A stretch of 64,000 nt of DNA, taken from an uncultured Phascolarctobacterium sp. Lineage in GTDB: Bacteria > Bacillota > Negativicutes > Acidaminococcales > Acidaminococcaceae. Every line of letters starts with the position of its first letter. Within the stretch, counting starts at the first letter, position 1. The notes beneath the pieces were generated by a model, which searched no databases, was not told where the DNA came from, and worked only from the letters and a program-made list of their open reading frames with translations. Position numbers and translations under genes: made by a program. This document shows positions 23,491 through 45,753 of the stretch, piece by piece. Location of the stretch: the NCBI GenBank assembly GCA_949288065.1, contig CASEIL010000002.1, forward strand, positions 62,001 to 126,000, given 5' to 3'.

Positions 23491-24792
23491 TTATTCTTCA
23501 ATCATCGGCACGGTGTTGGCTGCGTGCTGCATTACATTAATGGTGTAATCGGTTTTGCCCTCTTCCTGCAATTTCTTCTGCGCCAGCTCCCACGCTTCGG
23601 CAATGGTTGCCACAGGGATTTGCCCAGTTTTGCGTGCTGCCTCGAAGTTTTCGGGCTTGGTTACAAGGTAAACGGTGTTTTCGCGGCACAGGCTGGCCAG
23701 CACAAACGCTACATAGAACGGAATGCTGAATTCCTCGCGCAGTGCCTTTTCCATGTCGGTTAAATTGTCAAAGCGGAAGCTTTCCATATAAGCGGGCGGG
23801 TCGTTAATTTCGCGTGCTTCCAGTGCGGCGATTAAAATGCCGCCTTTTTTCAGCGCCAGCGTGGAGGTATCATAGGTTTTGCTGCCCTGATAAAGGTTGA
23901 TGTCTTTCGGGAAGCCGCCCGGCGATGCGATTACGACATCGGCGCGGCCTTTGCATTTAACGCCCTGAATTTTCAGTACTTCTTTGGTGCCTTCAAGCCA
24001 TGCGTCATACCAGTGGCCGCCCACGATTTTAGCAAAATCGCCGTCGTTATCCAACACGTTGTTTACCAAAAAGCACGGGTTAATAAACTGGCACGCTGCG
24101 CACAGCTCTTCGTGGAAGCGGTTGCCTTCGATATTTGCGGTTTCTACGCCCGGGTATACGCCGCCGCCAAATTCATCGGCCAGTGCCAGAGAATGGTGTT
24201 TTTGAATGGTTTCTTCGCTGGCAACGCCCGGCAGAATGCTTTTGCGCCCGCCGCCATAGCCTGCCAAAAGATGTACGGTAATGCCGCCGGTAAGGATTAC
24301 CTTGTCGGCGTCGGTAACGTGTTTGTCAATCCACACCGGCACGCCGCGCGGGGTGTCGCCTACATGCACGCAGACGGATTCTTTACTGCTGTGCTGGTAA
24401 ATTTTGATGCGGTCCACAACCTCCTGCCCGCATACTATAACGTCTTCCTCGTGGGTTTGCGGGCGGTGCGTGCCCTGCGCAACAACAATGCTGATGTCCT
24501 CATCGGGAATGCCTGCAAGGTTCAGCTCGTTAACGATATGCACCAGAATCTGGTCGGTATGCACAAGGCGGGTAATATCGCTGACAACGATTGCTACCTT
24601 TTCACCTTTGTTTACGCACTGCTGCAAGGGTTTGCTGTTAATAGGCTCGCGCATTGCTTTTAACACTGCTGCTTTAACATCGGTAATTTTTTCGCTTTCG
24701 TTGCCTTCAATAACCTGCAAAATATGCTCTTCCGGCAGCGCAACCTCCTGGTAAGTATCGCCAAAGCCAAATTTAAAATTTTTTAATGCCAT
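23491..24792 (-). CDS. LarA-family nickel-dependent hydroxyacid racemase/epimerase, third paralogue
   Basis: A LarA-type enzyme that uses the nickel-pincer cofactor to epimerise a 2-hydroxyacid by hydride transfer. I place the start at the second ATG (24792), because AAGGAAG abuts the first ATG but lies six bases before this one. With that start the key residues fall at H109 (QGTHRP), H174 (ITVHLLAG), K184 (GGGRK) and H200, the positions of catalytic and nickel-binding residues in L. plantarum LarA. It has VHLL where paralogue 2 has PHLF, so substrate may differ. Last gene of the triplet. Confidence 0.88.
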   Translation of the reverse strand: MALKNFKFGFGDTYQEVALPEEHILQVIEGNESEKITDVKAAVLKAMREPINSKPLQQCVNKGEKVAIVVSDITRLVHTDQILVHIVNELNLAGIPDEDISIVVAQGTHRPQTHEEDVIVCGQEVVDRIKIYQHSSKESVCVHVGDTPRGVPVWIDKHVTDADKVILTGGITVHLLAGYGGGRKSILPGVASEETIQKHHSLALADEFGGGVYPGVETANIEGNRFHEELCAACQFINPCFLVNNVLDNDGDFAKIVGGHWYDAWLEGTKEVLKIQGVKCKGRADVVIASPGGFPKDINLYQGSKTYDTSTLALKKGGILIAALEAREINDPPAYMESFRFDNLTDMEKALREEFSIPFYVAFVLASLCRENTVYLVTKPENFEAARKTGQIPVATIAEAWELAQKKLQEEGKTDYTINVMQHAANTVPMIEE

Positions 24793-24826
24793 AATCATCT
24801 TCCTTTCCCTTAATAATTTATGTTAA

Positions 24827-26116
24827 TTAATCAAAAAACGGTATCGTTGCCATGCCGTGCGGAATGATATTAACAGTGTAATCTTCTTTGCCGACAATTT
24901 TTTCAGCCATAGCCATTGCTTCTTCCAGCGTCGCTACCGGCACGGCGCGCGTTTTGCGTGCCGCTTCAAAATTTTCCGGCTTCGTTACTAAAATAATGGT
25001 AAAGCGTTCTGCTAAGCAGCAGGTGTAAAACGCAACGTAAAACGGAATACTAAAACCATCGCGCACATCCTGCTCCATCTGTTTCAAATCATCGTAGTGG
25101 AAGCAGTTAAAGTATACCGGCGGTTCCGTCATGTCCTCACATTCCAGCACGGCGATAATAACGCCGCCCTCTTTCAGGGACATCGCAGCAGGCACATAGG
25201 CCTTCATGCCCTGATACAGGTTCATATCGCGCGGGAAGCCGCCGCCGCTGGTAATGGCAATATCTGCCCTGGCTTTGGCGGTAACGCCCTGCTGCTTCAG
25301 CACAATGCGCGTGCCCTCCAGCCACGCCTCGTGCCAGTGCCCTGCCGCAATGGCGTAAAAATCGCCGTCAGCATCCATAATGGCGTTTACTAAAAAGCAG
25401 GGGTTTAAAAGTGCCGTCGCGTCGCACATATCGTCGCTGACGCGGTTATCCCACGTTTTGGCAAGGCAGGTGTCGGGGTTAATGCCGCCGCCAATAGTGT
25501 CGCTCAGCGCCATAACGTGGTTGTGGTTAATGGTTTGCGCTGCCGCGATGCCGGGCACTACGCTTTTGCGCCCGCCGCCGAAGCCTGCAAACAAATGCGG
25601 GGTAATGCCGCCGGTAAGGATAACCTTATCCGCTTCAACCGCGCGCTTGTCAAGATATACCGGCGTGCCGCGTTTGGTAGTGCCAAGGTACACATTCTTT
25701 TCCATATCGTAAGCGTCGTGGTCGTAAACCTTTAAGCGGCTGTATAAATCCTCGCCCAAAATAATTTTCTTCTCTGCTTCCGTGTTGGCGCGGTGCGTAC
25801 CGGCAGCGACGATAATGCAAATATCATCGTCCGGAATGCCGGCGTCGTTCAGCTCGCCCACCACAATGGGCAGGTATTCGCTGGTTTTGGTCCACGCACG
25901 CGTAATATCACTGACGAGGATAACCACCTTGTCGCCCGGCTGAACAACCTCGCGCAGCGGCGCACTGCCCACAGGATTGCGGATAGCATCCAGCACCGCT
26001 TGTTTTAAATCGGTAATTTTTGCTTCCGGCTCGGCGTCGATAATTTGCAGCACCTTGTTTTCATCAAGCATAATGCTTTGCTCGCCCTTGCCGTATTTTA
26101 ACTTATATTCTTTCAT
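24827..26116 (-). CDS. LarA-family nickel-dependent hydroxyacid racemase/epimerase, second paralogue
   Basis: A 429-residue LarA homologue. H108 (AGTHRA), H174 (ITPHLFAGFGGGRK), K184 and H200 match the L. plantarum LarA numbering exactly, and DITR (70-73) supplies the substrate-binding Asp/Arg pair. The PHLF context is that of the best-known lactate racemases, so this is the best candidate for a true lactate racemase in the set; that is inference. It begins nine bases after the first paralogue ends and lies about 35 bases before the third. Confidence 0.88.
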   Translation of the reverse strand: MKEYKLKYGKGEQSIMLDENKVLQIIDAEPEAKITDLKQAVLDAIRNPVGSAPLREVVQPGDKVVILVSDITRAWTKTSEYLPIVVGELNDAGIPDDDICIIVAAGTHRANTEAEKKIILGEDLYSRLKVYDHDAYDMEKNVYLGTTKRGTPVYLDKRAVEADKVILTGGITPHLFAGFGGGRKSVVPGIAAAQTINHNHVMALSDTIGGGINPDTCLAKTWDNRVSDDMCDATALLNPCFLVNAIMDADGDFYAIAAGHWHEAWLEGTRIVLKQQGVTAKARADIAITSGGGFPRDMNLYQGMKAYVPAAMSLKEGGVIIAVLECEDMTEPPVYFNCFHYDDLKQMEQDVRDGFSIPFYVAFYTCCLAERFTIILVTKPENFEAARKTRAVPVATLEEAMAMAEKIVGKEDYTVNIIPHGMATIPFFD

Positions 26117-26125
26117 TTATCTCGC

Positions 26126-27424
26126 TCACTTATCCAAAATGGGCAGCGTTGCCGAAGCATGCCCCATAATTGTAATTTTGTAATCTTCTTTGTTGTTTTT
26201 CTTTAAATCTTCCTGCACCAGCTGCCACGCCTCTTCCAGCGTTGCCACCGGCGTTTGCCCTGTTGCGCGCACAAACTCAAAGTTTTCGGGCTTCGTTACT
26301 AAATAAGTGTGCAGGGAGTTTACTATGCAGCGCGTTTTAAACGCCACAAAGGCGGGAATGGAAAAATCGGCGCGCACATCCTTTTCAAATTGCAGAATGT
26401 CGGATTTGGAGAACCAGTCCGTAAAAATGGCAGGCTCTTTAATGTCGGGGCATTCCAGCGTGCAGATGAGGTAACCGCCGGGCTTAACGGCAAAAACGGC
26501 GTTCATATGCGCCTTGCAGCTCTGGTAAAGGTTAATGTCCTTCGGGCTGCCGCCGGCAGAAGCAATAACAACGTCCGCCTGCTCCTTAATATGCACGCCT
26601 GCCATCGCCAGCAAATCGGCGCAGCCTTTTTCCCAGGCCTTATACCAGTGCCCTGCCACAACCTCGTGCAGGTCGCCTTCGGGGCTGAACACCATATTCA
26701 CCAAAAAGGCGGGGTTAATTTTGGCGCACACCTCGCTCATATCCTCATGCAGCGGGTTGCCCTCCAAAACGCCGGTTTCACACAGCGGGTTGCAGCCTGC
26801 GCCAACCTCGTCAGCCAACGCCATGGCGTGATTGTGCATAATGGTTGCGTGCCCACTGACGCCCGGCATAACAGCCTTGCGCCCGCCTCCAAAGCCTGCC
26901 ATCGGGTGCAGGGAAACAGCGCCGGTAATGATAATTTTATCGGCCTCAGCCACGGTTTTATCAATCAAAACAGGTGTGCCGCGGCTGGTAACGCCAAGGT
27001 CAACCAGCTCGTCGTTATTGCGGCAATCGTGCTGGTGGATTTTTATGCGTTTTACAATATCTGCACCACAAACCAAAACGTCCTCCTCTGGCGTATGGGC
27101 GCGGTGCGTACCCGTTGCCACAACAATGGTAATGTCCTCATCCGGCACGCCGCCGGCATTAATTTCGTCGATAGCCACCGGCAAAAAATCGGCCGTGCGC
27201 ACCAGGCGCGTAATGTCGCTTACTATAACGGCAACCTTATCGCCCTTTTGCACAACATCTTTCAGCTGCGCACTTTCAATCGGGCTGCGCAGTGCTGCCA
27301 GCGTTGCCTCTTTAATATCGCCGGCAACGGCAGCTTTATTGCCGTGAATGTCGTACAATATATGTTCTTCCGGCAGCATTACCTTCTGGCAGCCGCTGCC
27401 ATACGGGAGAGTGTATTCCTTCAT
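26126..27424 (-). CDS. LarA-family nickel-dependent hydroxyacid racemase/epimerase, first paralogue
   Basis: A 432-residue LarA homologue and the first gene of the triplet. Key residues are H107 (TGTHRA), H173 (SLHPMAGFGGGRK), K183 and H199, with DITR at 70-73, so catalysis and nickel-pincer binding should be possible. SLHPM differs from the PHLF of paralogue 2 at the active-site histidine. The start ATG follows AAAGGAG with a good spacer. The LarA superfamily includes lactate, malate, phenyllactate and sugar-acid enzymes, and this sequence does not decide between them. The triplet starts back to back with ssrA. Confidence 0.88.
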   Translation of the reverse strand: MKEYTLPYGSGCQKVMLPEEHILYDIHGNKAAVAGDIKEATLAALRSPIESAQLKDVVQKGDKVAVIVSDITRLVRTADFLPVAIDEINAGGVPDEDITIVVATGTHRAHTPEEDVLVCGADIVKRIKIHQHDCRNNDELVDLGVTSRGTPVLIDKTVAEADKIIITGAVSLHPMAGFGGGRKAVMPGVSGHATIMHNHAMALADEVGAGCNPLCETGVLEGNPLHEDMSEVCAKINPAFLVNMVFSPEGDLHEVVAGHWYKAWEKGCADLLAMAGVHIKEQADVVIASAGGSPKDINLYQSCKAHMNAVFAVKPGGYLICTLECPDIKEPAIFTDWFSKSDILQFEKDVRADFSIPAFVAFKTRCIVNSLHTYLVTKPENFEFVRATGQTPVATLEEAWQLVQEDLKKNNKEDYKITIMGHASATLPILDK

Positions 27425-27537: not shown

Positions 27538-27567
27538 TTGTACATTCTGTTACAGATATGCTATAAT
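27538..27567 (+). promoter_or_regulatory. Promoter of ssrA
   Basis: TTGTAC (27538-27543) and TATAAT (27562-27567) with an 18-base spacer. The predicted start near 27575 lies about 17 bases before the mature tmRNA 5' end, as expected for a 5' leader that is trimmed. Confidence 0.7.
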
Positions 27568-27591: not shown

Positions 27592-27919
27592 GGGGATGTA
27601 CTGGTTTCGACGGGGATAGGTGTGGTATGATAAGCGAGCCGTGTTTCCGTCAGCACGTTAAACGGCGGACGTTTAAAAATAAACGCTAAAGCTTAATGCT
27701 ACGTCCTTTCGTTCCTTTCCTGCGGGAATGATATGGACGCCAACAGCAGGATACTCTTAAGCCGTTTCCCGGAGGCTTAAGGGGAAACCTTTCGGGATAG
27801 CGACAAGATAACCCGCCATCAGGTGATTTTGAAGCGAAATAAAAAATGATGCGCTGCGCTCGGAGAAAGTTATATTGCAATATTTTCGGACAGGGGTTCG
27901 ACTCCCCTCATCTCCACCA
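27592..27919 (+). ncRNA. ssrA: Transfer-messenger RNA (tmRNA), one-piece
   Basis: Both tRNA-like halves are canonical: GGGGATGTACTGGTTTCGAC at the 5' end, and a T-arm with GGGGTTCGACTCCCC then CATCTCC-A-CCA encoded at the 3' end. The acceptor stem pairs GGGGATG with CATCTCC. A first pseudoknot can form from TCCGTC (27646-27651) and GGCGGA (27664-27669). Helix 5 forms from CGTCC/TCGTTCC and GGGAATGA/GGACG. The expected resume codon is GCT at 27685, 15 bases after the pseudoknot, but the frame then reads AAA GCT TAA. The tag would be only Ala-Lys-Ala, and no ALAA-type ending exists in any frame. At 328 nt the RNA is somewhat short. Confidence 0.93.
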
Positions 27920-28015
27920 TGTCGGCGGATATTTGATGCTGAAATTTTCTTTTTCAAGGTCTGCTTTGAATCCGAAATATTTTCTACATCAAGTTAAATA
28001 TATATTGTAAAATTC

Positions 28016-28056
28016 AAAAAAGCTGATTACAGTTTGTTCTGTAATCAGCTTTTTCT
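28016..28056. terminator. Bidirectional intrinsic terminator between ssrA and rpe
   Basis: A perfect 12-bp stem, AGCTGATTACAG (28021-28032) with CTGTAATCAGCT (28039-28050), is flanked by A and T runs on both sides. It can end ssrA transcripts on plus and the def-to-rpe operon on minus. The stretch 27920-28015 before it holds nothing else I can identify. Confidence 0.88.
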
Positions 28057-28086
28057 ATGCCAGTTTTTAGTTTTGAGTTTTACTTT

Positions 28087-39257: not shown

Positions 39258-40436
39258 TTACAGGCCTGCCTGCTCGCGCAGAGTTTCTGCCTTATCGGTG
39301 TGTTCCCACGGCAGGTCAACATCCGTGCGGCCAAAGTGGCCGTAAGCAGCAGTTTGTTTGTAAATCGGGCGCAGCAAATCCAGCGTTTTAATAATGCCGG
39401 ACGGGCTGAGCGAAAAGTTCTTTTTAATCAGCTCGGCAATTTTGTCGTCGTCAATTTTGCCGGTGCCGAAGGTATCAACCAGAATGGAAACCGGCTGAGC
39501 AACGCCGATAGCGTAAGCCAGCTGAATTTCGCATTTATCTGCTAAACCTGCGGCAACTACGTTTTTAGCAACGTAGCGTGCAGCATAAGCAGCGCTGCGG
39601 TCAACCTTCGTGGGGTCCTTGCCGCTGAACGCGCCGCCGCCGTGACGTGCCATGCCGCCGTAAGTATCGACGATAATTTTGCGTCCGGTCAGGCCGCTGT
39701 CACCCTGCGGGCCGCCGATAACAAAGCGTCCGGTCGGGTTAATATAATATTTGGTAGCATCGTCCAGCATTTCTGCGGGCACAACGGGTTTAATAACCTG
39801 TTCCATAATGTCCTTGCGGATTTGTTCCAAAGTAATTTCCGGCGCATGCTGGGTGGAAATTACAATCGTGTCGATGCGTACGGGTTTGCCGTCATCGTAT
39901 TCTACGGTAACCTGGGTTTTGCCGTCCGGGCGCAGGTAAGGCAGCACGCCGGTTTTGCGCACTTCCGCCAGGCGGCGGGAAAGTTTATGTGCCAAAGATA
40001 CAGGCAGCGGCATATATTCCGGGGTTTCGTTGGTGGCATAACCAAACATCATGCCCTGGTCGCCCGCGCCGACTTCGTTTTCGTCAGCCTTGCCTTCTTT
40101 GGCTTCCAGCGATTTATCAACGCCCATGGCAATATCGGCAGACTGCTCGTCGATAGAAATCAGCACGCCGCAGGTGTTGCCGTCAAAGCCGTATTTAGCA
40201 CGGTCGTAGCCGATGTTGATAACGGTTTCGCGCGCAATTTTCGGAATATCTACATAGCAGCTGGTCGAAATTTCGCCCACAACATGGATTTGCCCGGTTG
40301 CCACAACGGTTTCGCAGGCAACGCGGCCATGCGGGTCTTCTGCCAGAATGGCATCCAGCACGGCATCGGAAATCTGGTCAGCAATTTTATCAGGATGCCC
40401 TTCCGTAACAGATTCGGAAGTAAATAATTTTCTCAT
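39258..40436 (-). CDS. metK: S-adenosylmethionine synthetase
   Basis: Makes SAM from methionine and ATP. Signature motifs are [13 protein letters not shown] near the N-terminus, [12 protein letters not shown], and [16 protein letters not shown]. Length 392 is typical. It stands alone behind a SAM-I riboswitch, so expression should fall when SAM is high. In Bacillus subtilis metK is elsewhere; here it lies between coaBC and priA. Confidence 0.97.
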
Positions 40437-40499: not shown

Positions 40500-40604
40500 T
40501 TCTCATCTCTCGATTATCTCGCAGGACTTAGCACCGTTTGCCCAGGGGCATGGTTGCTGCGGTTTCATTGGGCCAATCCCTCCACCAGCTCTTGATGAGT
40601 AATT
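40500..40604 (-). promoter_or_regulatory. SAM-I (S-box) riboswitch
   Basis: The minus strand contains the S-box signatures in order: CTCATCAAGAGCTGGTGGAG, GGGATTGGCCC, ATGAAACC, GCAGCAACC, then GGTGCTAAGTCC. GATGAG closes the P1 stem with CTCATC. It is followed by an intrinsic terminator and metK. By the known mechanism SAM binding stabilises P1 and permits termination. P1, P2, P3 and P4 regions are all recognisable, so the aptamer looks functional. Confidence 0.95.
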
Positions 40605-44016: not shown

Positions 44017-45753
44017 GTGAATTTGGAAGGAATTACCATAAACCTCTTAACAACAGAGCTGCAAAAGCGCCTTTTGGGCGGCAAAATCTACAAGGTTTTT
44101 ATGCCCAACAAAAGCTGCCTTTTGCTTCTTATTAAAACAGAAAGCACTACCCTCGCCTTAACAGCGGATTTTGCGGGCGGCTCGCCCTATTTATACCTGC
44201 CGGAGAAAACACCGGAACGCCCCGACACGCCGCCTGCCTTTTGTATGCTTTTGCGCAAACACCTTGAGGAAGGGCGCATTACCAAAATCGAACAGAGCGG
44301 GCTGGACCGCGTGATTGCAATGGAAATTTCCAGCATCGGCAGCGCGCGGCAGATTATAACCAAACAGCTGGTGTTTGAGCTGACCGGCAAAAACGCCAAC
44401 ATTATTTTTACCGCCGACGGCATTATTTTAGACAGCCTTAAGCACGTTAACAAGGCGCAAAGCAGCTACCGCCAAATTTTGCCGGGGCTGCCCTACATCG
44501 CACCGCCGCCGCAAAACGGGCTGAATATTTTAACTTCCGCCCCGGCGGATATTGTTAGTACCGCGCAGGCACTTCCGCTGGCGCCTGCTAAAGCCTTAAT
44601 TGCCGCTACGACCGGCATCGGCCAGTACACAGCGGCGCAGCTTTTAAAAATTGCAAGTATTGATGCGGGCAGCAGTATTAACGACAGCAACGCCCCGCAG
44701 CTTGCCAATGCCATCGCTGACTTGCAGCAAAATATTAGCGAAGCTAAAGCAGGCAATGCGCTGGTGTACGCCGTTATTACGCGCACCAACAGCGTTAAAA
44801 CCGTGCTGCCGTTTAAACCCGTGCAGCTTGCCGAAGGCGAAAGCGTAAAAGAGTTTGCAAGTTTAAACAGCGCCATAAACTTTGCCCAAAGCCTTGCGCC
44901 CGTGCTGCTGCCGGAGCAGGAGCTGTTAGCTAAAACCGTAACTGCCGAAACGGAAAAGCTGGTTAAAAAAGCCGCCGTGCTGCGCGAGGAGCTTGCCGCT
45001 GCGGAGGACGCCGAACAGCAGCGCATTATTGCCGATACGCTGATGGCGAACCTGTACCGCATACCTAAAGGCAGCAGCAATATTACGGTGGAAAATATTT
45101 ACGACGGCACGCCGCTGGTTATTGCCCTTGCGCCCGATTTAACCGCCAATGAAAACGCGCAGAAATACTACAAACGCTACAACAAGCTGAAACGCGCGCA
45201 GACAGAAATTAAAGAGCAGCTGAAACTGACGGAAGAAGCGGTTGAGTATTTAGGCAGCATCGACGTAGCGTTAAAGCTTGTGCAAAGCCGCGCTGAAGTG
45301 GCGGAAATTAAAACCGAACTTGCAGCAGCAGGCTTTATAACAATTAAAAACACCAAAAACAAAATGCCGCAGGCCAAATCCACGCCTACTGTAGTTAAGC
45401 TTTCGGAAGATACCACGCTGTACATAGGTAAAAATAACAAACAGAACGATTATGTTACTTTCTCTATCGGCAGCGGCAACGATTTATGGTTCCACACCAA
45501 AAACATCCCCGGCTCGCACATTATTTTAAAAACAACCCTGCCCCAGCCGGAAGAAGCCGATATTAATACCGCCGCCAGCATCGCCGCTTACTTTAGCAAG
45601 GCGCGCGGCGGTAGCAACACGCCGGTGGACTGCACGCTGCGCAAGTTTGTTAAAAAGCCAAGCGGCGCCAAACCAGGCTTTGTAATTTACACTAACCAAA
45701 CAACCCATTATGTTACGCCGGACGAGGACGAAATAAAAAAGCTGCTGAAATAA
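44017..45753 (+). CDS. rqcH: Ribosome-associated quality-control factor RqcH (NFACT protein)
   Basis: By family, binds stalled 50S-peptidyl-tRNA complexes and adds C-terminal alanine tails. The 578 residues hold an NFACT-N domain (MNLEGITINLLTTELQKRL), a helix-hairpin-helix and long coiled-coil middle part, and the C-terminal NFACT-R domain with YVTFSIGSGNDLWFHTKN and GSHIIL. The start is GTG or ATG-equivalent at 44017 after AAAGGAG. It is the counterpart of Bacillus yloA and, as there, neighbours yicC, but is divergent here. It works in parallel with tmRNA, which is also encoded in this window. Confidence 0.94.
   Translation: MNLEGITINLLTTELQKRLLGGKIYKVFMPNKSCLLLLIKTESTTLALTADFAGGSPYLYLPEKTPERPDTPPAFCMLLRKHLEEGRITKIEQSGLDRVIAMEISSIGSARQIITKQLVFELTGKNANIIFTADGIILDSLKHVNKAQSSYRQILPGLPYIAPPPQNGLNILTSAPADIVSTAQALPLAPAKALIAATTGIGQYTAAQLLKIASIDAGSSINDSNAPQLANAIADLQQNISEAKAGNALVYAVITRTNSVKTVLPFKPVQLAEGESVKEFASLNSAINFAQSLAPVLLPEQELLAKTVTAETEKLVKKAAVLREELAAAEDAEQQRIIADTLMANLYRIPKGSSNITVENIYDGTPLVIALAPDLTANENAQKYYKRYNKLKRAQTEIKEQLKLTEEAVEYLGSIDVALKLVQSRAEVAEIKTELAAAGFITIKNTKNKMPQAKSTPTVVKLSEDTTLYIGKNNKQNDYVTFSIGSGNDLWFHTKNIPGSHIILKTTLPQPEEADINTAASIAAYFSKARGGSNTPVDCTLRKFVKKPSGAKPGFVIYTNQTTHYVTPDEDEIKKLLK

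Follow-up and report, generated by a model that had tools for sequence, protein, structure and literature searches.

In trans-translation, the stalled ribosome is freed and the broken protein is labelled, both at once. Laboratory alleles already separate rescue from labelling. A natural case, if true, would reveal which of the two functions selection retains, would put the requirement for helix 5 of the transfer-messenger RNA (tmRNA) to the test, and would amount to a system that releases unfinished proteins without a destruction signal. This is the question raised by the ssrA gene of an uncultured Phascolarctobacterium, located in a 64,000-nt stretch of contig CASEIL010000002.1 (hereafter the window, whose numbering is used throughout unless the contig, C2, is named). 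The original prediction, made from the letters alone, was that its tag is reduced to Ala-Lys-Ala-stop. We will examine the gene, the deletion and the host partners of the system, and then weigh what this locus most probably encodes.

The identity of the gene comes from the RF00023 model, which covers 27592-27919 on the plus strand over its whole length (1-374) and scores 179.6 bits where the cut-off is 47. This is the single match above the cut-off in the genome, the gene being single-copy; ARAGORN gave no report of an ssrA at these positions. As read from the sequence, the acceptor stem contains the G-U pair G27594-U27913, as for alanine charging, which is predicted here, and the CCA end lies at 27917-27919. 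The hexamers of the promoter-like site and their spacing are identical in five sister species. The outer stem of pseudoknot 2 is formed by CGTCC 27702-27706 and GGACG 27735-27739, and its loop TCCTGC 27718-27723 can pair with GCAGGA 27746-27751. The private substitutions of the window lineage fall in pseudoknots 3 and 4; in particular, the pair 27758/27779 of pseudoknot 3 has changed on both sides, from A-U to U-A, as expected under selection for structure, and this selection may predate the deletion described below. The terminator-like hairpin resembles one found downstream of ssrA in genome G003. Apart from the deletion, the gene looks like a working one in its promoter, G-U pair, pseudoknots and terminator, and the rest of the RNA is intact. 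Structurally, the 328-nt RNA remains a tmRNA, the ALAA-like end of the tag being a functional feature. The features of the locus are collected in Table 1.

Table 1. Features of the ssrA locus and of the rqcH-like gene, in window coordinates.
Feature	Position	Strand	Basis or detail
Promoter-like site	27538..27567	+	TTGTAC 27538-27543, 18-nt spacer, TATAAT 27562-27567
ssrA (tmRNA)	27592..27919	+	328 nt, CCA encoded; RF00023 full model, acceptor pairs read from sequence
Tag frame GCT AAA GCT TAA (Ala-Lys-Ala-stop)	27685..27696	+	Alignment to the five sisters
TGCTA, 3' half of helix 5 without partner	27697..27701	+	Alignment with relatives
Pseudoknot 2	27702..27751	+	Single-strand fold, Rfam alignment; loop complementarity seen in the sequence
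Pseudoknot 3 stem CTCTTAAGCC/GGCTTAAGGG	27754..27783	+	Private two-sided change
Terminator-like hairpin GCTGATTACAG...CTGTAATCAGC, then T-run	28025..28064	+	Sequence comparison
rqcH-like gene (NFACT family)	44017..45753	+	Pfam NFACT_N 1.4e-103

The five closest genomes (Phascolarctobacterium/Acidaminococcaceae) show about 82-89% identity over the DNA near ssrA, which places the window in a separate species of the genus. All five of these sisters carry AAAAATAAAC GCT AAA AAC GAT TAC GCT TTA GCA GCT TAA TGCTACGTCC, that is AKNDYALAA-stop, where the window has AAAAATAAAC GCT AAA GCT TAA TGCTACGTCC, that is AKA-stop. The difference is one clean in-frame block of 18 nt (AACGATTACGCTTTAGCA), absent between AAA and the second GCT and leaving the junction GCTAAAGCTTAATGC. 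Tag codons 3-8, six of the nine residues, are thus gone, and with them most of the ALAA degron; the stop is kept. The loss of sequence that had been suspected from the gene length is therefore a deletion relative to the sisters, of exactly 18 nt and not of the 20-30 bases proposed. Since the bases 5' of the deletion are identical in all five sister species, the position of the resume codon (GCT, 27685-27687) is not in doubt. The in-frame stop TAA lies at 27694-27696 as predicted, and no other placement gives a standard tag. None of the reading frames from pseudoknot 1 to pseudoknot 2 yields an ALAA end. What the original prediction had observed is confirmed; its interpretation is partly supported.

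The same deletion reaches beyond the tag. In this family, helix 5 is formed by TTAGCA-GCTTAA-TGCTAA, its loop containing the stop codon, and it is paired in every aligned relative that has both strands. Only one compensatory change, U-A to C-G in G011, is seen among them, this slight covariation being due to an arm that is nearly invariant and coding. In the window, the 5' strand was lost within the 18 nt, so that the helix with the stop in its loop is absent; at most three pairs (AGC/GCT) are still possible in its place. The original prediction had described helix 5 as readable and as starting five bases after the stop. Half of it is in fact missing, and the helix seen there belongs to pseudoknot 2, as its outer stem. 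The unpaired 3' strand shows no drift, which means that the deletion is either recent or not real. In Escherichia coli, mutations that break helix 5 cause a substantial drop in tagging, which compensatory changes reverse (PMC1168896).

A tag of this kind stands alone among the main tmRNAs compared. Tags were read in 50 relatives, almost all from the class, and each of them terminates in ALAA, AMAA or AYAA. In the class sample, 141 genomes have a tmRNA match, with lengths of 337 to 354 nt except for the window, G036 and G071. The two latter were considered as parallel cases and discarded, as both have a normal tag (G036, 329 nt, is cut by a contig end; G071 has 323 nt). The same holds for seven other matches of 327-330 nt (G174, G195, G292, G242, G201, G277 and G278), all with standard ALAA tags, and the shortest main tmRNAs of the phylum sample carry standard tags as well. 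All the Bacillota main tmRNAs whose tag was read have a standard AA-type end, the reading there being that of the best-scoring frame, which over-extends some tags upstream and serves only for the presence of this end. Neither the literature examined nor the main tmRNAs of the sampled genomes yielded a natural tmRNA with a comparably short tag. For scale, the tmRNA Website, as summarised in its published account, holds 1716 sequences with 734 unique tags (PMC4383926).

The phylum sample contains one exception, which is not a main tmRNA. G225, which has a normal tmRNA (AEENYALAA), also carries a second, paralogous and GC-rich one (L150:201-529(-), i.e. G225:C4:30153-30481) of 329 nt and 144.9 bits, devoid of helix 5 and of any ALAA-like tag, with a possible frame GAV-stop or a 15-residue non-standard peptide. 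From its sequence, it is possibly an independent tagless tmRNA. Phages, plasmids and 60 related genomes yielded no full relative of it. Second tmRNA-like genes also occur in G171 and G243 (L152:201-552(+) and L151:201-552(-)); the G243 copy has a degenerate 5' end and a tag-like end ANDNYVVAA.

The host partners of the system are in place. SmpB is full length (C2:167718-168149) and differs from that of G003 by 44 synonymous and 8 non-synonymous codons; smpB is without sign of relaxation. ClpX is intact in the genome. The RF-1-domain proteins of the genus number only two, both the size of RF1/RF2, and no ArfB-type back-up was found among them. The rqcH-like gene, which had rightly been placed 16 kb away, possibly provides a separate C-terminal tagging route. 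RqcH tags chains on obstructed large subunits, and not the products of tmRNA; that it compensates for the lost tag is only a possibility.

We consider it most likely, with middling confidence, that this is a real tmRNA gene with a recent 18-bp in-frame deletion, i.e. a natural tmRNA that rescues ribosomes without labelling. If the gene is expressed, its alanyl-charged RNA bound by SmpB would still enter stalled ribosomes, and GCT 27685 would be placed as the resume codon. The ribosome would add the alanine of the charged RNA, then Ala-Lys-Ala, and stop at the UAA of the fourth codon. Ribosomes would thus be freed, and the product, with ...AAKA at its end in place of ...ALAA, should escape ClpXP. 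The geometry seems compatible with such a function: when UAA occupies the A site, the stem of pseudoknot 2 would start some 12 nt away from the first nucleotide of the codon in the P site, close to where the mRNA enters. In favor of this reading, we count the clean in-frame gap, the stop and the promoter that were kept, the compensatory pair, SmpB, ClpX, the lack of ArfB and of any intact tag elsewhere, and the absence of other clean deletions of this size in the aligned DNA described below. Against it, we count that the tag is kept in all the 50 relatives read, that helix 5 is broken and that its 3' strand is undrifted.

The prediction that rescue could still work is upheld as a possibility by analogy with Helicobacter pylori, in which the SsrA-STOP allele (stops at codons 2 and 3) supports viability and ribosome rescue, whereas the loss of the resume codon is lethal (PMC2584231). 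We also count this analogy in favor of a tmRNA restricted to rescue. In both cases, the resume codon is kept, a stop lies within the first few codons and the degron is absent. However, the H. pylori allele is a laboratory substitution with its stop at codon 2, whereas the window gene has a presumably natural deletion, a stop at codon 4 and a damaged helix 5. In H. pylori, the truncated tag has a cost in terms of stress tolerance and competence (PMC2584231). With the usual tmRNA of Phascolarctobacterium (RF00023, AKNDYALAA), the window gene shares the tRNA-like ends, pseudoknots 1-4, the resume codon and what lies upstream, the stop and the smpB partner; it differs by the missing 18 nt, which in the usual RNA supply codons 3-8 of the tag and the 5' half of helix 5. 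Natural decay of trans-translation parts is also found in Carsonella, Hodgkinia and hemoplasmas, and some Carsonella tags end in lysine (PMC4131195). Those genomes, however, are extremely reduced or host-bound and lose the gene or parts of SmpB, whereas the 1.8-Mb gut bacterium of the window lacks only most of the tag. More tentatively, a free-living gut bacterium may, at the species or strain level, have a tmRNA that rescues ribosomes yet adds only AKA, and evolution may be able to separate rescue from tagging and to dispense with helix 5.

The deletion is known from one genome assembly, 87.6% complete, of this 1.8-Mb gut bacterium, and with a sole source it may be an artefact or belong to a dead gene. 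The stronger of these two alternatives, which we hold to be less probable than a true deletion in a working gene but still a serious contender, is an assembly or read error, or a minority variant taken as the consensus, in an organism that truly encodes AKNDYALAA. Indeed, the single assembly is in 44 contigs, and the deletion falls among the most conserved positions of ssrA. Moreover, the deleted block has one arm of an inverted repeat, GCTAAA/TTTAGC, which folds in a relative; such a structure can cause skipping during amplification, and could have favoured a genuine loss of the block or an error in the reads. The collapse of a repeat, which had been put forward as the main competing explanation, is unlikely: the deletion ends have only 1 nt in common and thus form no direct repeat, and the block itself is not a repeat that would allow a simple graph collapse. 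Only the other kinds of assembly or read error keep some weight. Against them, the contig is without any N, and about 116 kb of alignment with two relatives contains no clean deletion of at least 9 nt with perfectly matching flanks other than the ssrA gap, two further deletions of 12 nt being in-frame differences in divergent coding sequence. Genes are nearly all full length against the two relatives, with lengths (compared on non-overlapping ORFs) within 10% in 43 of 47 and 79 of 85 cases, and in most exceptions it is the copy of the window genome that is longer. With so few exceptions and a sole clean gap, the assembly is not prone to errors of this type. A second ssrA copy or an intact tag elsewhere in the genome was also considered, and neither is present; no contig holds the intact tag, even when allowing 2 mismatches. 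The tag region gave no match in viral contigs, and related DNA in plasmids amounted to a 27% match only.

We find it unlikely that the deletion is real and the gene on its way out, the loss of the tag and of half of helix 5 having left a poor or inactive RNA whose role is taken over by RqcH and RF-dependent factors. The E. coli helix 5 mutants and the presence of RqcH would agree with this, as would the loss of ssrA or smpB in some bacteria (PMC4131195), but the RNA is otherwise undamaged, smpB is unrelaxed, ArfB is missing among the RF-1-domain proteins, and the reported losses belong to strongly reduced or host-bound genomes. Lastly, resumption in another frame to give a longer, different tag is very improbable: the +1 frame is open for 24 codons from the resume site (LKLNATSFRSFPAGMIWTPTAGYS), but the upstream sequence is that of the sisters, in which GCT is used at this place, and no frame provides an ALAA-like end.

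Around the gene, synteny with all sisters breaks just 3' of ssrA and its hairpin (27920-28063, i.e. C2:89920-90063). The distance between ssrA and smpB is about 0.5 kb in the relatives; in the window genome, smpB is 78 kb downstream. Several blocks of the contig are reordered relative to the relatives, without inversion, and the relatives also differ among themselves at the breaks. No long repeats were found at the synteny breaks, nor any link between the break and the 18-nt deletion. Directly upstream of ssrA and divergent from it are three tandem LarA-like genes (lactate racemase family; 23491-27424(-)), and such genes adjoin ssrA in the sister species too. Further along the window, an ordinary SAM riboswitch (RF00162, 80.5 bits, 40500-40601(-)) is located directly upstream of metK (39258-40436, minus strand).
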